DNA of 64,000 nucleotides from Pseudobdellovibrionaceae bacterium. GTDB lineage: Bacteria > Bdellovibrionota > Bdellovibrionia > Bdellovibrionales > UBA1609. The DNA lies in assembly GCA_023954155.1 (NCBI GenBank), contig JAMLIO010000003.1, positions 124,001 to 188,000 on the forward strand, written 5' to 3'. The position numbers and the translations under genes were made by a program. The notes below the pieces were generated by a model. It ran no database searches. It saw only the letters and a program-made list of their open reading frames with translations, and was not told the origin of the DNA. Position 1 is the first letter of the stretch. Each line of letters starts with the position of its first letter. Of this stretch, positions 14,691 through 30,054 are shown one piece after another.

Positions 14691-14726
14691 TACAATAGTT
14701 GCAACCTTGCAAATATTGTATATACT
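14691..14726 (+). promoter_or_regulatory. Palindromic MarR operator overlapping operon promoter
   Basis: Positions 14691-14720 form a 30-bp inverted repeat matching at 13 of 15 positions per arm, with outer arms TACAATA/TATTGTA and two inner TTGCAA boxes. TTGCAA at 14699-14704 and TATACT at 14721-14726, 16 bases apart, read as -35 and -10. A start site near 14733 would leave almost no leader before the ATG at 14735. The position is ideal for autorepression by the MarR protein. Confidence 0.75.
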
Positions 14727-14734
14727 CATATGTC

Positions 14735-15154
14735 ATGAGCAGCAAAATAATAAATTCACCAATTGAACGTACCACTAGAAAACTATTCAGTATCGTTATT
14801 GAACGCCTGGCCGTTGTCATTAGCAAAGAGAGCTTAAGTTTCTCTCAGGTCGCCGCTCTTCACATTATTGATCGAGAGGGGTTCATTAACATTAATGACA
14901 TTTCAAACAAACTCAATCTCTCTGTGTCTGCGTCTAGCAGAATGATTGATGAACTTGTGAAAAAAGAATTTGTTGAAAGAAAAGAAGATCCCAAAAACAG
15001 AAGAGTTAAAATTTTATCTCTTTCACCAGATGGCGAGCACTTTATGAACAACCTAAGTATCGAAAGAGTGAAAATAATAAAACAATCAGCCAACTTGATA
15101 GTAGACAAAGTAAAATTAAAAATAATCGAAAAAAGCAAAGGGAGAAAAAAATGA
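14735..15154 (+). CDS. MarR-family transcriptional regulator
   Basis: The 139-residue protein has the MarR winged helix: LSFSQVAALHIIDREG, ISNKLNLSVSASSRMIDELVKKEFVERKEDPKNRRVKILSLS, with the DPKNRR wing. Flanking helices (about 5-30 and 110-139) form the dimer interface. ATG at 14735 is taken as start because the promoter and palindrome lie directly upstream; a longer frame from 14699 would start inside the operator. Its TGA overlaps the ATG of the next gene (ATGA), so it is the first gene of the efflux operon. It probably represses itself and the operon until an inducer binds. The absence of cysteine argues against an OhrR-type thiol sensor. Confidence 0.9.
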   Translation: MSSKIINSPIERTTRKLFSIVIERLAVVISKESLSFSQVAALHIIDREGFININDISNKLNLSVSASSRMIDELVKKEFVERKEDPKNRRVKILSLSPDGEHFMNNLSIERVKIIKQSANLIVDKVKLKIIEKSKGRKK

Positions 15155-15582
15155 AAACCATTATAATCGTATCACTAATTTTGGTGGCAAATGCAGCCAG
15201 TGCGCAAAGTCATGATCATCATCAAAGTCATTCTAAAAAAAGTGATCACCATTTAGAAATAAAAAAACAGTTTAAGCCTACAGATGATCTTAAAGTTCGA
15301 ATGGAAAAGGTCTTAAGTCTGATGAAGGAATTAAAAGTAAAAAAAGATGATGTAAAGAGCATTAAAGAATACGGAGATAAACTCACTCTCACCGTTAACG
15401 ATATATTCAAAACTTGCAAGCTTGATCCAGAAGCAGATGAGGCCATTCACCCATCACTAGGATTAATTCTTGATGGGGCTCAAGAATTTAAAAAGGGTCA
15501 ATATGATAGTGGTCACAAAAAAATTCACGAGGCCCTTTTAGATTATGAGAAGTTATTTAAGCATGAAGGATGGAATCATTAG
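15151..15582 (+). CDS. Secreted His-rich helical protein, possible metal binder
   Basis: The 143-residue protein has a clean signal peptide (cleavage near ASA-QS), then a histidine-rich stretch (HDHHQSHSKKSDHH) suited to binding Cu, Zn or Ni. The rest (45-143) is predicted helical and contains one cysteine (FKTCKLDPEADEAIHPSLG) and a late HEGWNH. The C-terminal half looks like a small helical bundle; no family is recognised with confidence. It overlaps the MarR gene by 4 bases, with GGGAG upstream, and precedes an efflux transporter. A role as periplasmic metal chaperone or sensor for the pump is inference. Confidence 0.75.
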   Translation: MKTIIIVSLILVANAASAQSHDHHQSHSKKSDHHLEIKKQFKPTDDLKVRMEKVLSLMKELKVKKDDVKSIKEYGDKLTLTVNDIFKTCKLDPEADEAIHPSLGLILDGAQEFKKGQYDSGHKKIHEALLDYEKLFKHEGWNH

Positions 15583-16096: not shown

Positions 16097-19000
16097 ATGA
16101 AAAATGTAACCCTCTATTTTATAAAAAGACCAATTCTGGTAAATTTTATTTTGGCGCTCAATTTTATTATTGGTGGCTATTTCATTTATAAGGTTCCCAA
16201 GGAAGCCTTCCCTGGCGTTTCAATGAATCAGATCGTTATTGTGACTAAGTACCCTGGAGCATCGGCCAAAGATGTTGAGTTGAATGTCACTGTGAAGCTG
16301 GAAGAGAAGATCGCTGAAATTGGAAATATCAAAGAATATCGTTCAAGTTCCATTGAAAGTGTATCAAGGGTTACAATCTTTGCAGACGATAACTTAAATG
16401 AACTCCAATTTAAAGATCTTCTATTAGATGTGCAGACTGAAGTGGATAAAATTGATGATTTCCCATCAGATATTGAAGGTCAACCCATTATTACCAGTGT
16501 TACAACGGAAGATCGTCCAATTATGGAGATTGCCTTTACTGGCGATTATGCGCACTTAAAAAATACCTTACATGAAATAGAAAATGATCTTCGTAAAGTT
16601 TCAGGTGTTTCAAATGTAACTTTGGTGGGTCTCCCTGATGAAGAAATTCACATCGAAGTAGACGCTAATAAAGCTCAGGAAAAAGAAATTGATCTTAATT
16701 CGATTTACTTTGCGATCAATACTAGAAATCAAGTCGGAACAGGTGGAACGCTTGAATCTTTTTTATCTCAAAAAAAGATTGTTTCATTTAATAAATACGA
16801 CAAAGCAGAAGATGTTCTAAATACGGTAATTAGAATGTCACCTGATGGTCAAGGAGTTTACTTAAGTGATGTCGCTGAATTAAATTACCGACCTAAAGAT
16901 GAAAAACTTATTGTTCGTAATAATGGAAACCGTGGAGCTTCAATCCTAGTGGCGATTAGAAGTGGTGTAGATCAGTTAAAAGTATCTGATCAAATCAAAG
17001 AGTTTTTAGCAAATCTAGCACTCCCAGATGGTGTAACTTACAAGCTAAATAATGACGTATCTGATAATGCAAGAAGTAAGTTCTCTCTTCTCAAGAATAA
17101 TGGTCTCATTGGTTTTATTCTTGTTCTTATTCTACTCTTTTACTTCCTTGGTGGTAAACCAGCTTTTTGGACGGCATTTGGTATTCCCTTTTCCATTTTT
17201 GGAAGCATGATTATGTTTGTTCCTATGGGGATGACACTTAACTCAGTTTCAATGGGGGCATTTGTAATCGTTCTTGGGATGATTGTTGATGATGCTATGG
17301 TGATAAGTGAACGTTTCGATGTCAATATCGAAGATGGCCAATCACCAGAGGAAGCGGCCAGTAATGCTGTGGGAAGGCTCTGGAAACCAGTGTTAGCATC
17401 ATCTTTAACAACGATAGTAGCATTTTTACCATTATTAGCATTAGGTGGCCTATCAGGTAAATTTATTTGGCAGATGCCTACAGTTGTCATGATGGCGTTG
17501 TTTGTTTCACTTATTGACTGCTATTTATTATTACCAGCTCACCTTGCTCATGGGTCAAATAAAAAGGGGCAATATCAAAAAAATAAAATTGTCGTTTTTG
17601 GTGAGAATTTATATGAAAAACTACTTCGCAAGTTAATTGATCACCGTTATTTTGTGACACTTGGATTCTTAGGGATACTTGGTTTTAGTGTCTTTATTGG
17701 TGCAACAAAAGTAAGAAAAGATTCTTTTCCGCAAGAGGCCTCTGAAGGATTCACGATTAAAGCAACCCTTACAAAAGGATATGCTCCCGAAAAAGTCGAA
17801 GAAATAATCAGTGAATTAGAAAAGAGTATTCAAAGTCTAAAAAAGAAAGAGCTTGTAGGATATACCACGAGAATCGGTACACATAGCTTAAGCTCCCTTA
17901 CAAATTTAGGAACCGAAGAAAACTTAGTTGCTTTTATGGTTTATTTAACTCCCTATAGTGACAGAAATAGAACTGCTCAAGATATTGTAGATGATATTCG
18001 CGCAAAACATTACAGATTTTATACAGAAAAAGGATACGGTTTAGAATTTGACCTGATGCGGATCGGTCCCCCACTTGGCGAGCCATTTGAAATAATTATC
18101 TCTTCAAACAACAATGAAAACCGGGCGAACTCCTCACTAAAAGTAGCCAATTTTTTAAAGATGATTGATGGTCTCTCTGATGTGAAAGACGATCAAATTG
18201 AAGGAAAAGATGAGATTAATCTTAGGCTAAATTATAAAAAAGTTGCCCAAGCAGGTTTAACACCGGCAGACATTATCAGGACTTTAAGAATTGCTTTTGA
18301 TGGTCAGGTTGTCACAGATTATTCGTCAATAAATGAAACTTATGATTTTCGCTTGAGATTGAACAAAAAAACGAGAGGAGATTTAGATTTTGTTTCCAAT
18401 CTCCCGATAGCAAATAAGCGTGGTCAGCTTATTAAGTTAAACACGATGATTGAGTATGAAGAAAGACCATCTTTTGCAGAGATTAAGCATTTTAACGGTC
18501 AGCGATCAACATCTATTACAGGAAATATAAATACAGAAAAGATTACAGCAGTTGAAATGCTCAAGAAATTTAACGAAACTTTTGTCAAAGATAAAAATGT
18601 TAAATACACAATTAGTGGACGTCCAGTAGAGGAAGAAAAAATTTTTGCTGGCTTAAAAATTGCTGCGGCACTGGCGATTATTGGAATATATTTTATCCTA
18701 AGTTTAATGTTTGATTCTTATGCAAAACCTTTTTTAATATTAACAGTAATCCCTTTTGGAGTTGTAGGAATATTTCTATCCTTTTTTGCGCATGGATTAC
18801 CAATTTCGATGTTTGCAGGAATCGGTCTAATTGGTCTTTCTGGCATCGTTGTTAATGACTCCATCGTTCTTGTAGATCATTTAAGTCAACGACTTAAAGA
18901 AAATGCGAAATTCTCTATAGATGTTCTCATCCAAGGGGCCAAAGAGAGGCTTCGTCCAATCTCTTTAACTACCGTAAGTACAATGCTCGCCGTGGCTCCC

Positions 19001-20623
19001 ACTGGATATGCTATTGGTGGTTATGACTCCTTGTTGTCTCCACTGTCATTGGCAATACTTTATGGACTTTTATTTGGAACTACGGTCGTTCTTATTTTAA
19101 TGCCCAATCTATACGTAATTGGCAATGATCTAGGAAACTATATGAAAAAGGTTAAAGGTAACAAAAAGGCAGCACATTTATCAGTTTTATTAATCCCACT
19201 CATAATTGGTTTACACACAAAAGAAGTTAAGGCCGAAGCAAGAATAAACATTAAAAGAATTGTAGAACTTGTCGAAGATACCAATGAATTTAAGATTCAA
19301 AATGAGTCAGTAAGTCAGTCTGAATTTGGCATTGATGCAGTTGATGGACTCCTCGATTCAAAACTGAGTTCAAAGTTTTTTAAGTATTCCTCGGTAAATT
19401 ATCCCAACCCACCGATCTCTCTTGATTCTGAGAAAGAAGGATTCGGACTTAGTTTTGATTACGAAAAAATGACTTCATTTGGAGTAAAACTTGGTTTGGG
19501 GGTTGGATTTGAGGATAAAAAGCTTGGAACAATTCCGGCCAATAATCAATTTAATCTTAATGCGATGGATACTGTTTATAAAGCAAGTATTGCCGCTCCG
19601 CTCTGGAGAAACTTTGGCAGTAAGGAATATCACTTAAACAGAAGTGCTGCCCTTACCAAAAAGAGTGGCCAAACCCTTCAAGGTAAATCTTTAAAGGACA
19701 AACTAATTATCGATGCTGTCACTCATTATTGGTCGATAGTTAAGTTAGAAGAAGAGAGAGAAATTGCTCAAAATTCACTGACACGTTTTAAAGAACTACA
19801 TAAATTGAACATAACAAAAATAAAGTCTGGAATTATCAGTAAGTCCGAGTTCTTAACTTCTGAAGTTGAAATTACAAGTCGAGAGAAAATCTTAAAAGAT
19901 TTAGAGTCTAGGATAAGAATTGAGAAATTAACTCTAGAAAGTGCTTTAGAACTGAAATCTTCTGTTGTGATTGAGCATGACAAAATGAATGCTTCTAGTT
20001 CAATTCTAAGCAGCAAAAGTAGTTCTGCTCTAAATTTAGTAGAGTCTGGTCTTACCTATAAACAAATGCAAAGTAATAGTGAGCTTTTTGATGAATTGGT
20101 TTCAATTGAAAACGAAAAAACAAAATCAAATGTTGATTTTTTTGTATCTTTAAAGAGTTTTGGACGTGGTGATAATTTAAGCAACTCAATTAGTGAAAAC
20201 ACTCAAGATAAATACGAGGTATTTGCTGGTGTGACTTGGGATCTTGACGTAGGAACTAAGAAAAATGATTCTGCTATAGCAGCAGCGATGAGTCGAAAAA
20301 GACAAGCAGACTACAGGAGAAATAAGACCAAGCTTCAACTTATAAAGAGCGTAGAGTCGCTAAAAGAAAAAGTAAAATCTAATAAAGAGCAGATTGTATT
20401 TCTTGAAAAGATGAAAGAGCAACAGTTCAATATTTTGAAAGCTGAAAAGAAGAGGTTTGAAAATGGTAGAATTACAACATTAGACTTTGTAAAACTACAA
20501 GAGGCTTATGATAGAAGCTCATTGCAAGTTATAGCACTTAACTTTTCAAATGAAATAACCGCTCTTAATTTATATTTTACGGTTGGAAAGACGGATGAAT
20601 ATTTACGGTCATATATGGAGTAA
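16097..20623 (+). CDS. RND efflux transporter fused to TolC-like outer-membrane factor
   Basis: One 1508-residue frame encodes two pump parts. Residues 1-1010 are a complete RND permease: TM1 near 12-31, periplasmic loop 1, TM2-6 with the proton-relay pair in GMIVDDAMVISE (Asp398/Asp399), loop 2 from about 540, and TM8-12 with GLSGIVVNDSIVLVDH in TM10. Residues 1016-1046 look like a Sec signal peptide (MKKVKGNKK, hydrophobic LLIPLIIGL, then EVKA-EA). Residues 1047-1508 are an outer-membrane factor with two long helical hairpins (RFKELHKLNITKIKSGIISK and RFENGRITTLDFVKLQEAYD) and barrel strands. An internal ATG at 19142 has AGGA 6 bases upstream, so the factor might also be made separately. 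No adaptor (HlyD-like) gene is present. The sequence is A+T-rich. Substrate is unknown. Confidence 0.88.
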   Translation: MKNVTLYFIKRPILVNFILALNFIIGGYFIYKVPKEAFPGVSMNQIVIVTKYPGASAKDVELNVTVKLEEKIAEIGNIKEYRSSSIESVSRVTIFADDNLNELQFKDLLLDVQTEVDKIDDFPSDIEGQPIITSVTTEDRPIMEIAFTGDYAHLKNTLHEIENDLRKVSGVSNVTLVGLPDEEIHIEVDANKAQEKEIDLNSIYFAINTRNQVGTGGTLESFLSQKKIVSFNKYDKAEDVLNTVIRMSPDGQGVYLSDVAELNYRPKDEKLIVRNNGNRGASILVAIRSGVDQLKVSDQIKEFLANLALPDGVTYKLNNDVSDNARSKFSLLKNNGLIGFILVLILLFYFLGGKPAFWTAFGIPFSIFGSMIMFVPMGMTLNSVSMGAFVIVLGMIVDDAMVISERFDVNIEDGQSPEEAASNAVGRLWKPVLASSLTTIVAFLPLLALGGLSGKFIWQMPTVVMMALFVSLIDCYLLLPAHLAHGSNKKGQYQKNKIVVFGENLYEKLLRKLIDHRYFVTLGFLGILGFSVFIGATKVRKDSFPQEASEGFTIKATLTKGYAPEKVEEIISELEKSIQSLKKKELVGYTTRIGTHSLSSLTNLGTEENLVAFMVYLTPYSDRNRTAQDIVDDIRAKHYRFYTEKGYGLEFDLMRIGPPLGEPFEIIISSNNNENRANSSLKVANFLKMIDGLSDVKDDQIEGKDEINLRLNYKKVAQAGLTPADIIRTLRIAFDGQVVTDYSSINETYDFRLRLNKKTRGDLDFVSNLPIANKRGQLIKLNTMIEYEERPSFAEIKHFNGQRSTSITGNINTEKITAVEMLKKFNETFVKDKNVKYTISGRPVEEEKIFAGLKIAAALAIIGIYFILSLMFDSYAKPFLILTVIPFGVVGIFLSFFAHGLPISMFAGIGLIGLSGIVVNDSIVLVDHLSQRLKENAKFSIDVLIQGAKERLRPISLTTVSTMLAVAPTGYAIGGYDSLLSPLSLAILYGLLFGTTVVLILMPNLYVIGNDLGNYMKKVKGNKKAAHLSVLLIPLIIGLHTKEVKAEARINIKRIVELVEDTNEFKIQNESVSQSEFGIDAVDGLLDSKLSSKFFKYSSVNYPNPPISLDSEKEGFGLSFDYEKMTSFGVKLGLGVGFEDKKLGTIPANNQFNLNAMDTVYKASIAAPLWRNFGSKEYHLNRSAALTKKSGQTLQGKSLKDKLIIDAVTHYWSIVKLEEEREIAQNSLTRFKELHKLNITKIKSGIISKSEFLTSEVEITSREKILKDLESRIRIEKLTLESALELKSSVVIEHDKMNASSSILSSKSSSALNLVESGLTYKQMQSNSELFDELVSIENEKTKSNVDFFVSLKSFGRGDNLSNSISENTQDKYEVFAGVTWDLDVGTKKNDSAIAAAMSRKRQADYRRNKTKLQLIKSVESLKEKVKSNKEQIVFLEKMKEQQFNILKAEKKRFENGRITTLDFVKLQEAYDRSSLQVIALNFSNEITALNLYFTVGKTDEYLRSYME

Positions 20624-20627
20624 AAAA

Positions 20628-20903
20628 ATGAAAGAATTACCAGAAAATGTAAATGTATATAAACGCACTCCTGATTTTAATCAAGAAACCATCCCTGCTG
20701 GATTATTGAAGGCCCATACAACAAAAGAAGGAACTTGGGGAAAAATTTGTGTCTCCAATGGGAAATTACTATACACAATCGAGAAAGAACCACAGGAGAC
20801 AATAGAACTAATGCCCGGGAAAATTGGAGTTGTGGAGCCACAAGTTCCACATCATGTAGAACCATTGGGGGATGTTGAGTTTCATGTGGAGTTTTTAAAA
20901 TGA
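20628..20903 (+). CDS. DUF1971-domain protein (TehB-associated cupin-like)
   Basis: The 91-residue protein matches the DUF1971 pattern throughout: LPENVNVYKRTPDF, TIPAGLLKAHTTKEGTWGKI, GKLLYTI, GVVEPQVPHHVEPLG, VEFHVEF. This small cupin-like domain is also found next to or fused with TehB-type tellurite-resistance methyltransferases and in YeaR-type proteins. The histidines in PHHVEP could bind a metal. ATG at 20628 follows GGAG, which overlaps the stop of the RND fusion gene, so translation is probably coupled. Its stop overlaps the next ATG (ATGA). Confidence 0.83.
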   Translation: MKELPENVNVYKRTPDFNQETIPAGLLKAHTTKEGTWGKICVSNGKLLYTIEKEPQETIELMPGKIGVVEPQVPHHVEPLGDVEFHVEFLK

Positions 20904-25530: not shown

Positions 25531-28500
25531 TTAATCCTCCATTTTAAGTTCGTGTTGAATTTGAATTTGTCTTTGATGTCCCACAAACCAGTAGTAAAGC
25601 ACGGGTACAGCAAAGCGACTTAAGATTGTGGCGGCGATCTCGCCAAAGATTAGGCTCACAGCTAAACCTTGAAAAATGGGGTCTGCTAACATCACTGAAC
25701 TGCCCACAACCACTGCGGCGGCAGTTAAAAGCATAGGGCGAAACCTAAGTACACCCGCACTGACCACTGCCTCTTTTAAAGCCATCCCTTGCGCAATTTG
25801 ATGTTCAATGAAGTCGACCAGAATGATGGAGTTCCTGACAATGATTCCCGCACCCGCAATAAATCCAATCATTGAGGTTGCCGTAAAATACGATCCTACA
25901 AGGGCATGTCCTGGCAGAATCCCAATTAAACTGATGGGAATCGGAGTCATAATAATCAGGGGAACCGTAAAGCTTCGAAACCATCCTAAAACTAGAACAT
26001 AAATCAAAATCATAACCATACCAAAGGCCCCACCCAAATCACGAAAGACTTCATAGGTGATAAACCACTCTCCATCCCACTTCACTACAGGAGCCAGAGT
26101 ATCCCAAGGTACTTCTGCGGTTTGGATGGGATATTTTATTTGTGGTGCCAATTTAAGAATTCCATAAACGGGCGCTTCTTCTGCCCCAGCCAATTCGCTC
26201 ATCACATAGGACACTGGTTTTAAGTTTTTTCTATGAAGGGTGGTCTGTTTAAATTCACGAGGCTCCTTTAAAACATCACTGGCCTCCACGGAACCTGATT
26301 CAAAAGAGGGAATCTGTAAACGCGCAAAGGGTCTGACACTGGAGCGATGATCTTGAGCCACAGATAAATCTACAGAAACATCTTCTGGCGACAGAGTATC
26401 CGATAAGGTAGTGATGGAGGTTTCTGAAAATAACAAATGCCCCAAGTGCATAAGGTCTTCTGCACTCGTTCCTAATAGTCCGCCTTTTTTTTGATCATAT
26501 TCATACAACAAGCGTGTACGCCCTTCTCGCATGGTCGTATCTAAGTCGACCACACTAGGTTCGTTGGCAAAAATCTGGGCCAGCTCTTCAGCGACCTGAT
26601 CACGCACTTGTTGGTTCGGTCCATACACTTCAGCAATCATGGTGGCCAAGACAGGAGGACCTGGTGGGATTTCAAGAACTTTGGTGATGGCTTTCATTTT
26701 TTGACCAAAATCAGAAATCACTGGTCGCAGCTTTTCGATCACTTCGTGACTGGACTGGTCTCGATCATGTTTGGGTGTAAGTAGAACATGAAGATCATTT
26801 TGATAGTCAGTCCCCCTTAGAAAAGTGTGCTTCACCATTCCAGAAAATGAAAATGGTGCCGCTTCGCCTGAAAACACTTGCACCATTTTAACGTCTTTAT
26901 TTTTTAAAATTTCTTGAGCCAGTTCTACAGAATGCTCTTTGGCTATTTCTCTTGGCGTTTCCGCAGGATAATCCACAAGAACTTGGAACTCTTCTTTATT
27001 ATCAAAGGGAAGCATTTTGACCTTTACAGATTTAAAGGCAATTAAGCTTGAGGCGAGCAAAAGTAAAACCATAATGAACGAACCAAAAACTAGAGATGAT
27101 TTCTTTGATCCTAATAATAACTCCATCACACGCTCATAAATTTGATCCAGTCGACTGGATTTTTGCCCTTCTTCTGACTCGTCATGCGATTCTTCTTTAA
27201 GAAGTTTAACCGAAGCCCATGGAGTGATAATAAACGCGACAAACAGCGAAAGAATCATGGCAAGACTAGCACCCACAGGGATAGGTTTCATATAAGGACC
27301 CATCAATCCTCTGACAAAAGCCATCGGCAAAATCGCAGCAATCACGGTAAAGGTCGCTAAAATTGTAGGGTTGCCTACCTCACTTACAGCGCGGATAGTG
27401 GCTTTCACAAGTCCACCCTTTGCTCCTGCACGTAAGTGTCTTTCTATGTTTTCCACCACCACAATGGCGTCATCCACTAAAATTCCTATAGAAAAAATCA
27501 ATGCAAATAGAGTGACTCGATTCAGGGTGTATCCCATAAAATAATAGATCGCCAAAGTCAGAGCCAACGTGACTGGAATAGCAATGGCCACTACAAGAGC
27601 TGCACGCAAACCCATAAAAAGAGCAATTAAAAACGCTACAGAAAAAGTGGCAATCAGCAAATGTTCAATCAGTTCATGGGATTTATCTGAAGCGGTGGAG
27701 CCATAATCTCTGACCACACTCATTTTCAAGTCTGAATTTTCAGGCTTCGACTTCGTCTCTTCCACAAAGACATTCACTCGTTTTAAAATCTGTTCTGCAA
27801 GGGTGACAACGTTTGTGCCTTTACGTTTTGAAAAGACAATCGAAACCGCTTTTTGTGGAGCTTTCCCTTCTTCTACAAGAACCGAACCTCTAACCACTTG
27901 CTCAGGGCCATCCGTGACTTCTGCAATATCCTTAATATAAACAACTTGGCCACCTCGTTGGCCAATGACCACGTTTTTGACATCTTCAAGATTCTTAAGA
28001 CGACCACCGACTTCTACATCTAAAGTTTTTTCGTTGTTCCAGTTTTTTCCTGAAGGTGCCAAAGCATCATTTTTCTTTAGGGCCTGGGCCACAGAAAGTA
28101 GTGAAACGCCTCTTTGATTCATCTTAGTGGGGTCCACAATCACTCGTAGCGCTCGTTTTTGTCCTCCTAATAATTCCACCCGCGAGAGATCGGGAGTGCT
28201 AGACAGCTCTCTGGCTAACGGGGCCACTACTGAACGCAACTCATACTCACTTAATTGGTCTGAGGTGAAAGACAGTACAAGAAAAGGAACATCATCAATA
28301 GAAAATGCCTGAACTTGCGGAGCCATTGCATTGGCAGGAAGTTCACTTTTAATTAACATAAGCTTATGGTGAATTTTAACCAAGCTAGGTTCCATAGGCT
28401 CACCCACTTTAAACCGCACCGTCACCAAACTTCCATGGGGTTGGCTGCTGGAGTAGACATACTCAACACCATCAAGCCCCCACACTGCGCGCTCTATGGG

Positions 28501-28719
28501 TTCTGTGACTTTTCTTTCAATCTCTTCGGCTGTAAATCCAGGCGCGCCCGTTCGTATATCAATCATAGGAACAGAAATTTGTGGTTCTTCTTCTTTCGGG
28601 GTTAGATATACAGCAAACAGTCCCAAAAGAATGCTCACCACCGCAATCACGGGAGTCAGTTTAGAATGTACGAAAGCCTTTCCGATTTGCCCTGCAAAAC
28701 CTAATTTATTGTTATTCAT
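25531..28719 (-). CDS. RND efflux permease (second system)
   Basis: This 1062-residue RND-superfamily permease has TM1 near 22-42 (IAVVSILLGLFAVYLTPKEEE) and two large periplasmic loops. TM4 contains the proton-relay Asp pair in IGILVDDAIVVVENIERHL. TM8-12 are near the C-terminus (MIGFIAGAGIIVRNSIILVDF in TM10). The opening LTPKEEEPQI and GAPGFTAEEIE are common in RND pumps next to ArsR genes. ATG at 28719 follows AGGTGG; GTG at 28728 lies within that site. It lies between the tolC-like gene and DUF2892. No membrane-fusion (adaptor) gene is in the operon. Substrate is unknown; the ArsR regulator suggests metals or thiol-reactive compounds. Confidence 0.92.
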   Translation of the reverse strand: MNNNKLGFAGQIGKAFVHSKLTPVIAVVSILLGLFAVYLTPKEEEPQISVPMIDIRTGAPGFTAEEIERKVTEPIERAVWGLDGVEYVYSSSQPHGSLVTVRFKVGEPMEPSLVKIHHKLMLIKSELPANAMAPQVQAFSIDDVPFLVLSFTSDQLSEYELRSVVAPLARELSSTPDLSRVELLGGQKRALRVIVDPTKMNQRGVSLLSVAQALKKNDALAPSGKNWNNEKTLDVEVGGRLKNLEDVKNVVIGQRGGQVVYIKDIAEVTDGPEQVVRGSVLVEEGKAPQKAVSIVFSKRKGTNVVTLAEQILKRVNVFVEETKSKPENSDLKMSVVRDYGSTASDKSHELIEHLLIATFSVAFLIALFMGLRAALVVAIAIPVTLALTLAIYYFMGYTLNRVTLFALIFSIGILVDDAIVVVENIERHLRAGAKGGLVKATIRAVSEVGNPTILATFTVIAAILPMAFVRGLMGPYMKPIPVGASLAMILSLFVAFIITPWASVKLLKEESHDESEEGQKSSRLDQIYERVMELLLGSKKSSLVFGSFIMVLLLLASSLIAFKSVKVKMLPFDNKEEFQVLVDYPAETPREIAKEHSVELAQEILKNKDVKMVQVFSGEAAPFSFSGMVKHTFLRGTDYQNDLHVLLTPKHDRDQSSHEVIEKLRPVISDFGQKMKAITKVLEIPPGPPVLATMIAEVYGPNQQVRDQVAEELAQIFANEPSVVDLDTTMREGRTRLLYEYDQKKGGLLGTSAEDLMHLGHLLFSETSITTLSDTLSPEDVSVDLSVAQDHRSSVRPFARLQIPSFESGSVEASDVLKEPREFKQTTLHRKNLKPVSYVMSELAGAEEAPVYGILKLAPQIKYPIQTAEVPWDTLAPVVKWDGEWFITYEVFRDLGGAFGMVMILIYVLVLGWFRSFTVPLIIMTPIPISLIGILPGHALVGSYFTATSMIGFIAGAGIIVRNSIILVDFIEHQIAQGMALKEAVVSAGVLRFRPMLLTAAAVVVGSSVMLADPIFQGLAVSLIFGEIAATILSRFAVPVLYYWFVGHQRQIQIQHELKMED

Positions 28720-28728
28720 AGAATCCAC

Positions 28729-30054
28729 CTATTTCACTTTCAATATTTGATTCGGATCGAATTTAGTCTGTTGGGATGATTTTTCTGCGGATTCAACATA
28801 GCTTTGTGCCGCCTCAAAGGTCTGAGCGATGACATCCGCTCGGCGATTAAACACTTCGGCAAGCTGTAAGGCATTGATAGAGCCATTTTTAAAAAGCCTT
28901 TCCATTGTCTTAAGCTGTTCGTCCATAGCTTTGGCAGATTGATTCAAAAGATCCAAGTTTTCATCAATAGCAGTAAGCTGTTTTTGAAATGCGTTCTTCT
29001 GAGCCTCTTGTTGCACTCTTAGTGCTTGAGCATACTGACCATAAGCTTCTGCTTGAAGCCTTGATTTTTTGTAAACCCCTCGATCTGAGGGATTAAATAG
29101 GCTCCATTGCAAATACACACCTGCTGTATACCCTGTGGCTGTATCGCGCTTGCCATTAAACAAGTATGTTTCTGCAAATGCTCCGATGCGAGGTCGATAT
29201 CTTGCTTTTTCCATCTCGGCCATCATCGTCGAAGCCTTTGACTGTTCTAGTTTCACCTCAAGCTCAAAAGACTCCTGACTTGAATTTTGATTTGATTTTG
29301 TAAATATATTTCTTTTCACAAAAACTCTAGGATCAGCAATCATCAAAGACGAAATGTCTACCTGTGACCCCATGGTTTGTAGCGTTTCCTGTAAAGCCCG
29401 ACTGTGGGTAGAATATTGGCTGATCTGACCTACTAAGCGCAAACGCAAAGATTTAAGCCCCAGCAGTCCCGAATACCCGACTGGATTTTCACGGGAACCA
29501 AACTGATATCTTTTTAATAAGCCATCTACCTGATCACGCAAATTTTTAAGCTCTTTTACTTTATAATTTAAAACACCTACTTCGATATAAGATTTAGCTA
29601 CAGCCAAATACAGACTGGCTCGAGTTTGGTTCCTATGATGTTCTTTTGCATTTTTTAGATGCTCCATCATTTTTTGTTTAGAGGTGCTCATTCCTCCCTC
29701 ATACAGATTGATATTCACCCCTAAAGCTCCTTGTGCATATAAACTGGCATCTGGCTCATTGATCAATGAAGGGTTGAAATCAGACGCTTGTAGGTCTCTT
29801 TGTTGGATCACACCAAAAAACGAAGCACCAGGATCATTGGTATGGTACGCATTAGCATTTAAATACACTTGCGGAAGCCAGTGTTGCTTTGACATTTCAT
29901 AAGAAATTTGTGCTGACTCATATTCCAAAGCTGTGGCTTTATGAGCTGGAGAATGGGCCTCAATCTGTACCCACACCTCTGAAAACTCTTGTGCTCCCAA
30001 AGTGGTGGATGTAGTGAGTGCTAATAAGATTAAAAAAGAATAGATATGTTTCAT
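28729..30054 (-). CDS. TolC-family outer-membrane efflux protein
   Basis: The 441-residue protein has a signal peptide (cleavage near LGA-QE) and the duplicated OEP fold. Helical hairpin blocks lie near 40-75, 120-215 (KSYIEVGVLNYKVKELKNLRDQVDGL) and 310-430 (RLFKNGSINALQLAEVFNRRADVIAQT), with strand segments such as LGVNINLYEGG and AGVYLQWSLFNP. It would form the trimeric outer-membrane channel for the adjacent RND permease. It starts 3 bases after the arsR stop, and its stop is immediately followed by the RND ribosome binding site. Confidence 0.92.
   Translation of the reverse strand: MKHIYSFLILLALTTSTTLGAQEFSEVWVQIEAHSPAHKATALEYESAQISYEMSKQHWLPQVYLNANAYHTNDPGASFFGVIQQRDLQASDFNPSLINEPDASLYAQGALGVNINLYEGGMSTSKQKMMEHLKNAKEHHRNQTRASLYLAVAKSYIEVGVLNYKVKELKNLRDQVDGLLKRYQFGSRENPVGYSGLLGLKSLRLRLVGQISQYSTHSRALQETLQTMGSQVDISSLMIADPRVFVKRNIFTKSNQNSSQESFELEVKLEQSKASTMMAEMEKARYRPRIGAFAETYLFNGKRDTATGYTAGVYLQWSLFNPSDRGVYKKSRLQAEAYGQYAQALRVQQEAQKNAFQKQLTAIDENLDLLNQSAKAMDEQLKTMERLFKNGSINALQLAEVFNRRADVIAQTFEAAQSYVESAEKSSQQTKFDPNQILKVK

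Follow-up and report, generated by a model that had tools for sequence, protein, structure and literature searches.

A conserved, narrowly distributed fusion of an RND permease with a TolC-like outer-membrane factor in Bdellovibrionota, probably processed by signal peptidase

We describe a gene from a 64,000-nucleotide stretch of a Pseudobdellovibrionaceae genome (hereafter, the window) that is a genuine fusion of an RND permease with an outer-membrane factor (OMF), conserved and narrowly distributed. The textbook view of RND pumps is of a permease and an exit channel that are distinct proteins, each located in its own membrane. In the window, both are encoded by one open frame of 1508 codons, running without interruption on the forward strand from ATG (16097) to TAA (20623), with an AAGGTGG stretch 5' of its first ATG. 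The original prediction of such an uninterrupted permease plus outer-membrane factor frame was confirmed by a frame check and by Pfam. We consider it likely that the gene gives rise to a single precursor, which signal peptidase would cut into permease and channel in equal amounts.

The permease domain is full-length: ACR_tran covers residues 7–1008 of the protein, equivalent to positions 4–1019 of the 1021 in the model (E 1e-157), and OEP is found in two stretches of the fusion, the best at residues 1351–1484 (E 3.5e-19). The sequences of solved structure nearest to the permease part are those of MexK and MexB. Asp398-Asp399 of TM4 align with the Asp pair of the MexB proton relay, and the position of the TM10 relay Lys of AcrB/MexB is occupied by Val (residues 916–927, nt 18842–18877, GIVVNDSIVLVD), as it also is in some other HAE1-like pumps. 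The NCBIfam comparison shows that the protein is not a member of the CusA/CzcA family TIGR00914 (310 bits vs a cut-off of 701); its RND_permease_2 score of 431 is higher, yet still below the cut-off of that model. The identity of the permease is based on sequence, since the structure model of this part was poor (pLDDT 44) and was not used. The AlphaFold model of the OMF part, built from five input sequences with a mean pLDDT of 63 and low confidence in the barrel, matches CmeC, TolC, CusC, and OprM (best Foldseek E 5e-13, TM about 0.5–0.6). Promoter and terminator scans did not rise above chance level.

Table 1. Coordinates of the fused gene, its parts, and its neighbours in the window
Feature	Coordinates	Strand	Basis or remark
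MarR-family regulator	14699..15154	+	Pfam; TetR-type regulator upstream of the pump at the other six loci
Small His-rich protein, 143 aa, signal-like N-terminus	15151..15582	+	No family match
Small hydrophobic protein, 140 aa	15637..16059	+	No family match
RND permease part, residues 1–1015	16097..19141	+	HAE1-like by Pfam and PDB sequence comparison
Possible internal ribosome-binding site AGGA and ATG codon 1016	19132..19144	+	Unconserved in the family
Internal Sec-type signal peptide (predicted), residues 1016–1046	19142..19234	+	Basic n-region, SVLLIPLIIGL h-core, EVKA/EA site
Outer-membrane factor (TolC/CmeC/OprM fold), predicted mature residues 1047–1508	19235..20620	+	Pfam, structure model
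DUF1971 protein, 91 aa, 3' of the fusion	20628..20903	+	Pfam
Small hydrophobic protein, 137 aa	20900..21313	+	ATGA overlap with the DUF1971 gene

Five more genomes of the phylum share this fused frame, with very similar lengths (1508 codons in the window, G202, and G203; 1509 in G025 and G190; 1512 in G189), making a total of six genomes from about four lineages. G025, from the same family as the window, is 63% identical to the window protein over 1505 residues. A search of 369 genomes of the phylum with the OMF part added the four other fused genes, in G190 (74% identity in the OMF), G189, G202, and G203; the remaining matches were only 22–28% identical and lay in frames of 471–685 codons, too short for an RND-OMF fusion. 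A contig search with the full-length protein gave no match, and one with the OMF alignment returned four loci, in two Oligoflexia MAGs (JADGAM010000104.1, G202; JADFZW010000046.1, G203), a Pseudobdellovibrionaceae MAG (JAUVAX010000049.1, G008), and a Bdellovibrionaceae MAG (JABJQG010000071.1, G025). Among the RND genes listed from 59 relatives, all other frames reach at most about 1130 codons, so that within this set the fusion is confined to the clade of the window.

The sole split relative is G008, again of the same family, in which a permease of 1023 aa and an OMF of 490 aa are encoded by two genes with an ATGA overlap. The fusion is therefore not indispensable. The existence of this split copy is also what could be said for an artefact, in which two genes of the window had been run together because an assembly or sequencing error took out a stop or a frameshift. 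However, the five other assemblies are fused at the same place, and on this ground we reject the artefact, to which we assign a very small probability. The original prediction had called for homologues with the same fusion, and this search thus yielded five of them, with G008 alone having two genes. Ahead of the ATGA overlap, the split junction of G008 (L047, near 2090–2120) contains a run of eight A, at which polymerase slippage could in principle give some fused product.

The permease tree groups all seven proteins in a single clade (100/100) that is well separated from every outgroup, and the split G008 is placed inside the fused clade as sister to the fused G189 (94/92). Given this position of G008 within the fused copies, one fusion followed by one later fission is the simplest history: a fused ancestor requires two events, a split ancestor about four fusions. 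The OMF tree, unresolved at its base, is consistent with this history. The root of the permease tree is its weak point, owing to the long branches between the clade and the outgroups. The copy in the window is nearer to that of G190, which belongs to a different family of the phylum, than to those of its own family, a closeness which suggests horizontal transfer of the pump gene.

The segment at the junction in which the original prediction had seen a Sec-type signal peptide, ending in EVKA/EA, is indeed present, with the junction reading LYVIGNDLGNYMKKVKGNKKAAHLSVLLIPLIIGLHTKEVKA up to the cleavage site and EARINIKR after it. We called the signal peptide by rule and by comparison only, and measured the n-region and core in the six fused copies. 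It occupies the same position in every one of them (n=6), 64–65 residues after the last permease motif; 3–5 Lys/Arg precede the hydrophobic core in each, and a small-x-Ala site is found at residue 1045–1046 in six of six. In the split copy G008, the corresponding position is taken by an ordinary signal peptide, and, with this copy included, all seven retain the small residue at -3 and the Ala at -1 of the signal-peptidase site, as VKA, AKA, AIA, THA, TYA, VQA, and VYA. This is despite the fact that the 30 residues around the site rank among the most variable of the protein. Between the window and G190, the junction differs by 16 synonymous and 17 non-synonymous codon changes, with no stop and no frame shift; judged by these changes, it is relaxed in sequence and maintained in frame. 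Since RND permeases end in the cytoplasm, as is established for their topology, the orientation of the junction suits a Sec signal.

The same topology (N-in, C-out) would also permit the segment to serve as a 13th transmembrane helix, leaving the channel attached to the permease once the pump is assembled, and the retention of the fused state in six of the seven copies could be read in this way. Against such an uncut fusion, the hydrophobic core is only ~11 residues long (mean hydropathy about 2.7) and the best 19-residue window reaches no more than 1.3–1.8, values more in keeping with a signal that is cleaved than with a complete membrane anchor. Further to that, the mature OMF begins directly after the cleavage site, so that, from what is known of TolC structure, there would be no long linker to span the periplasm uncut. 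Together with the site kept in seven of seven copies, this makes an uncut pump very unlikely in our view.

The two products could, in another reading, come from two starts, most of the channel being made by independent initiation at Met1016 as in an overlapping operon. The original prediction had correctly identified the Met codon (nt 19142) and the AGGA that precedes it by six bases; G189 has an ATG at its junction preceded by GAGGTG, and in G008 the ATG of the OMF gene overlaps the permease stop. The GAGGTG-(spacer)-ATG arrangement is common to G189 and G008, but only one of the two has it in the permease frame, and this shows that fused and split states interconvert easily. However, G025, G202, and G203 are without any in-frame ATG, GTG, or TTG from TM12 to the signal core, and G190 has TTG only, in place of the ATG of the window and G189. 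Also, as the permease frame contains no stop, each ribosome that completes the permease would make the channel as well. With half of the six fused copies devoid of a start codon at the junction, an internal start can be ruled out as a conserved route, and we regard it as unlikely that two starts account for most of the channel. Of the two outcomes originally envisaged, a cleaved fusion or two starts, the fusion with its conserved cleavage motif thus stands, but the internal start does not hold as a general feature. Cleavage is the option conserved throughout, internal initiation being at most an extra: in some lineages, given the ATG in the window and G189, separate initiation may supplement or replace it.

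We therefore favour a single precursor that is cut by signal peptidase, a model in which the cleavage, the stoichiometry, the substrate, and the source of the adaptor are the parts that we infer. The first 12 transmembrane segments would insert as in a normal RND permease. With the permease C-terminus in the cytoplasm, the Lys-rich stretch and short hydrophobic core of residues 1016–1046 would then act as an internal Sec signal and thread the rest of the chain into the periplasm, where signal peptidase I would cut after Ala1046. The channel part would fold into a TolC-like trimer that inserts in the outer membrane, and the permease would retain the signal peptide as an additional C-terminal membrane segment, one message supplying permease and channel at 3:3 per pump. 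The pump would probably export amphiphilic compounds or drugs under the control of the local TetR/MarR-type regulator, and a periplasmic adaptor, if any, would be supplied from elsewhere in the genome or else be dispensable. A comparable layout is that of the cytochrome bc1 precursor FbcH of Bradyrhizobium, in which a single frame leads from a multi-span membrane protein through an internal signal peptide into an exported one, with signal peptidase cutting the product; the likeness is in layout only, the proteins being unrelated.

The neighbourhood comprises a TetR gene (in the window, MarR and two small genes), the fusion, sometimes DUF1971, and a small hydrophobic protein in this order. In G189, a His-rich small protein also adjoins the TetR gene. 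The DUF1971 gene is directly behind the fusion in G190 too, and its G189 homologue is about 5 kb away; homologues of the 137-aa hydrophobic protein are found behind the pump in G190, G189, G025, and G008. Both genes are possibly linked to the substrate of the pump.

At each of the seven loci, 11–20 kb of surrounding sequence was covered and no adaptor gene was recognised in it. A local adaptor profile, for which two CusB-like proteins of Bacteroidota served as seed, did not detect one at any locus either; because this profile is weak alone, we also inspected the genes on either side, some of them with a Pfam scan. The periplasmic adaptor encoded with the pump, by which a tripartite RND system is recognised, was accordingly not seen at the seven loci. 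The outgroup loci are similar in this respect, with no adaptor recognised nearby; at 15 of them an OMF gene stands next to the RND gene and precedes it. In the genome of the window, strong matches to the adaptor model TIGR01730 adjoin other transporters. Other RND operons of this genome are arranged as OMF, a 228-aa gene, and RND, or as OMF, a 386-aa CusB-like gene, and RND, both middle genes matching the adaptor model, and as OMF, a 211-aa gene, and a CusA-like RND gene. The genome also has two OMF-RND pairs with no gene between, one at 25531–30054 of the window and the other at about G000:C1:43076-47537. The pair in the window (25531–28728 and 28729–30054, reverse strand) lies behind an ArsR-like regulator.

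These observations could point to a pump free of any adaptor, made from one cut precursor in a lineage that already commonly has two-gene OMF-RND pumps with no adaptor close by, with the RND trimer docking directly on the OMF trimer. This is compatible with the precursor model and agrees with the lack of a recognised adaptor at the seven loci and the outgroup pairs, as well as with the placement of the TIGR01730 matches beside other transporters. However, the adaptor genes of other operons in these genomes could be shared, and diverged adaptors can evade the models, as is illustrated in the genome of the window by the 228-aa and 211-aa products of genes that separate OMF from RND, neither of which has a Pfam match. 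In addition, the OMF retains two repeated tip-like motifs, SGIIS..E and NG.ITTLD, of the kind that in TolC meet the adaptor tips. We regard an adaptor-free pump as rather unlikely on balance.

Compared with MexAB-OprM, AcrAB-TolC, and MexJK-OprM, the window gene encodes a permease nearest to MexK/MexB and an OMF of the TolC/OprM fold; those systems, however, are made of three separate proteins including an adaptor, whereas here permease and OMF share one gene. The two-gene OMF-RND pairs of the phylum (outgroups among L048–L064) likewise combine an HAE1-like permease (about 30% identity) with a neighbouring OMF, without a recognised adaptor nearby and with TetR in several cases, but their genes are separate, the OMF comes first, and both trees place them a long way from the fused clade.

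The original prediction knew of no standard description of a fused pump; on this point it has to be amended, as databases hold Bacteroidota CusA/CzcA-OMF fusions of the same layout, with a full ACR_tran, a short basic and hydrophobic signal-like stretch, and OEP. Examples are WP_079466130.1 of Chryseobacterium balustinum and WP_013931245.1 of Runella slithyformis (1446–1449 aa), of which one has an internal ATG at the joint and the other has none. Alignments covering at least 80% of a Bacteroidota fusion were obtained for 37 plasmid records, mostly annotated simply as CusA/CzcA RND transporters. A literature search, with most subscription journals outside its coverage, found no paper on a natural RND-OMF fusion, and the architecture is visible in databases but seemingly little discussed. 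The Bacteroidota fusions differ from ours in belonging to the heavy-metal (HME) branch and in having an adaptor gene directly after them, and the permeases are only about 23% identical. The Bdellovibrionota fusion is therefore apparently an independent event, in the multidrug (HAE1-like) branch. What is new here is that the fusion recurs in another RND branch and another phylum, without a linked adaptor.

A single conserved precursor for the permease and the exit channel, probably cut by signal peptidase, would hold the two in a fixed ratio and suggests that the channel is dedicated to this pump and not shared. With the same layout present in Bacteroidota metal pumps and, with no linked adaptor, in the clade of the window, it becomes testable whether RND-OMF docking can dispense with an adaptor or can use one taken from another system.
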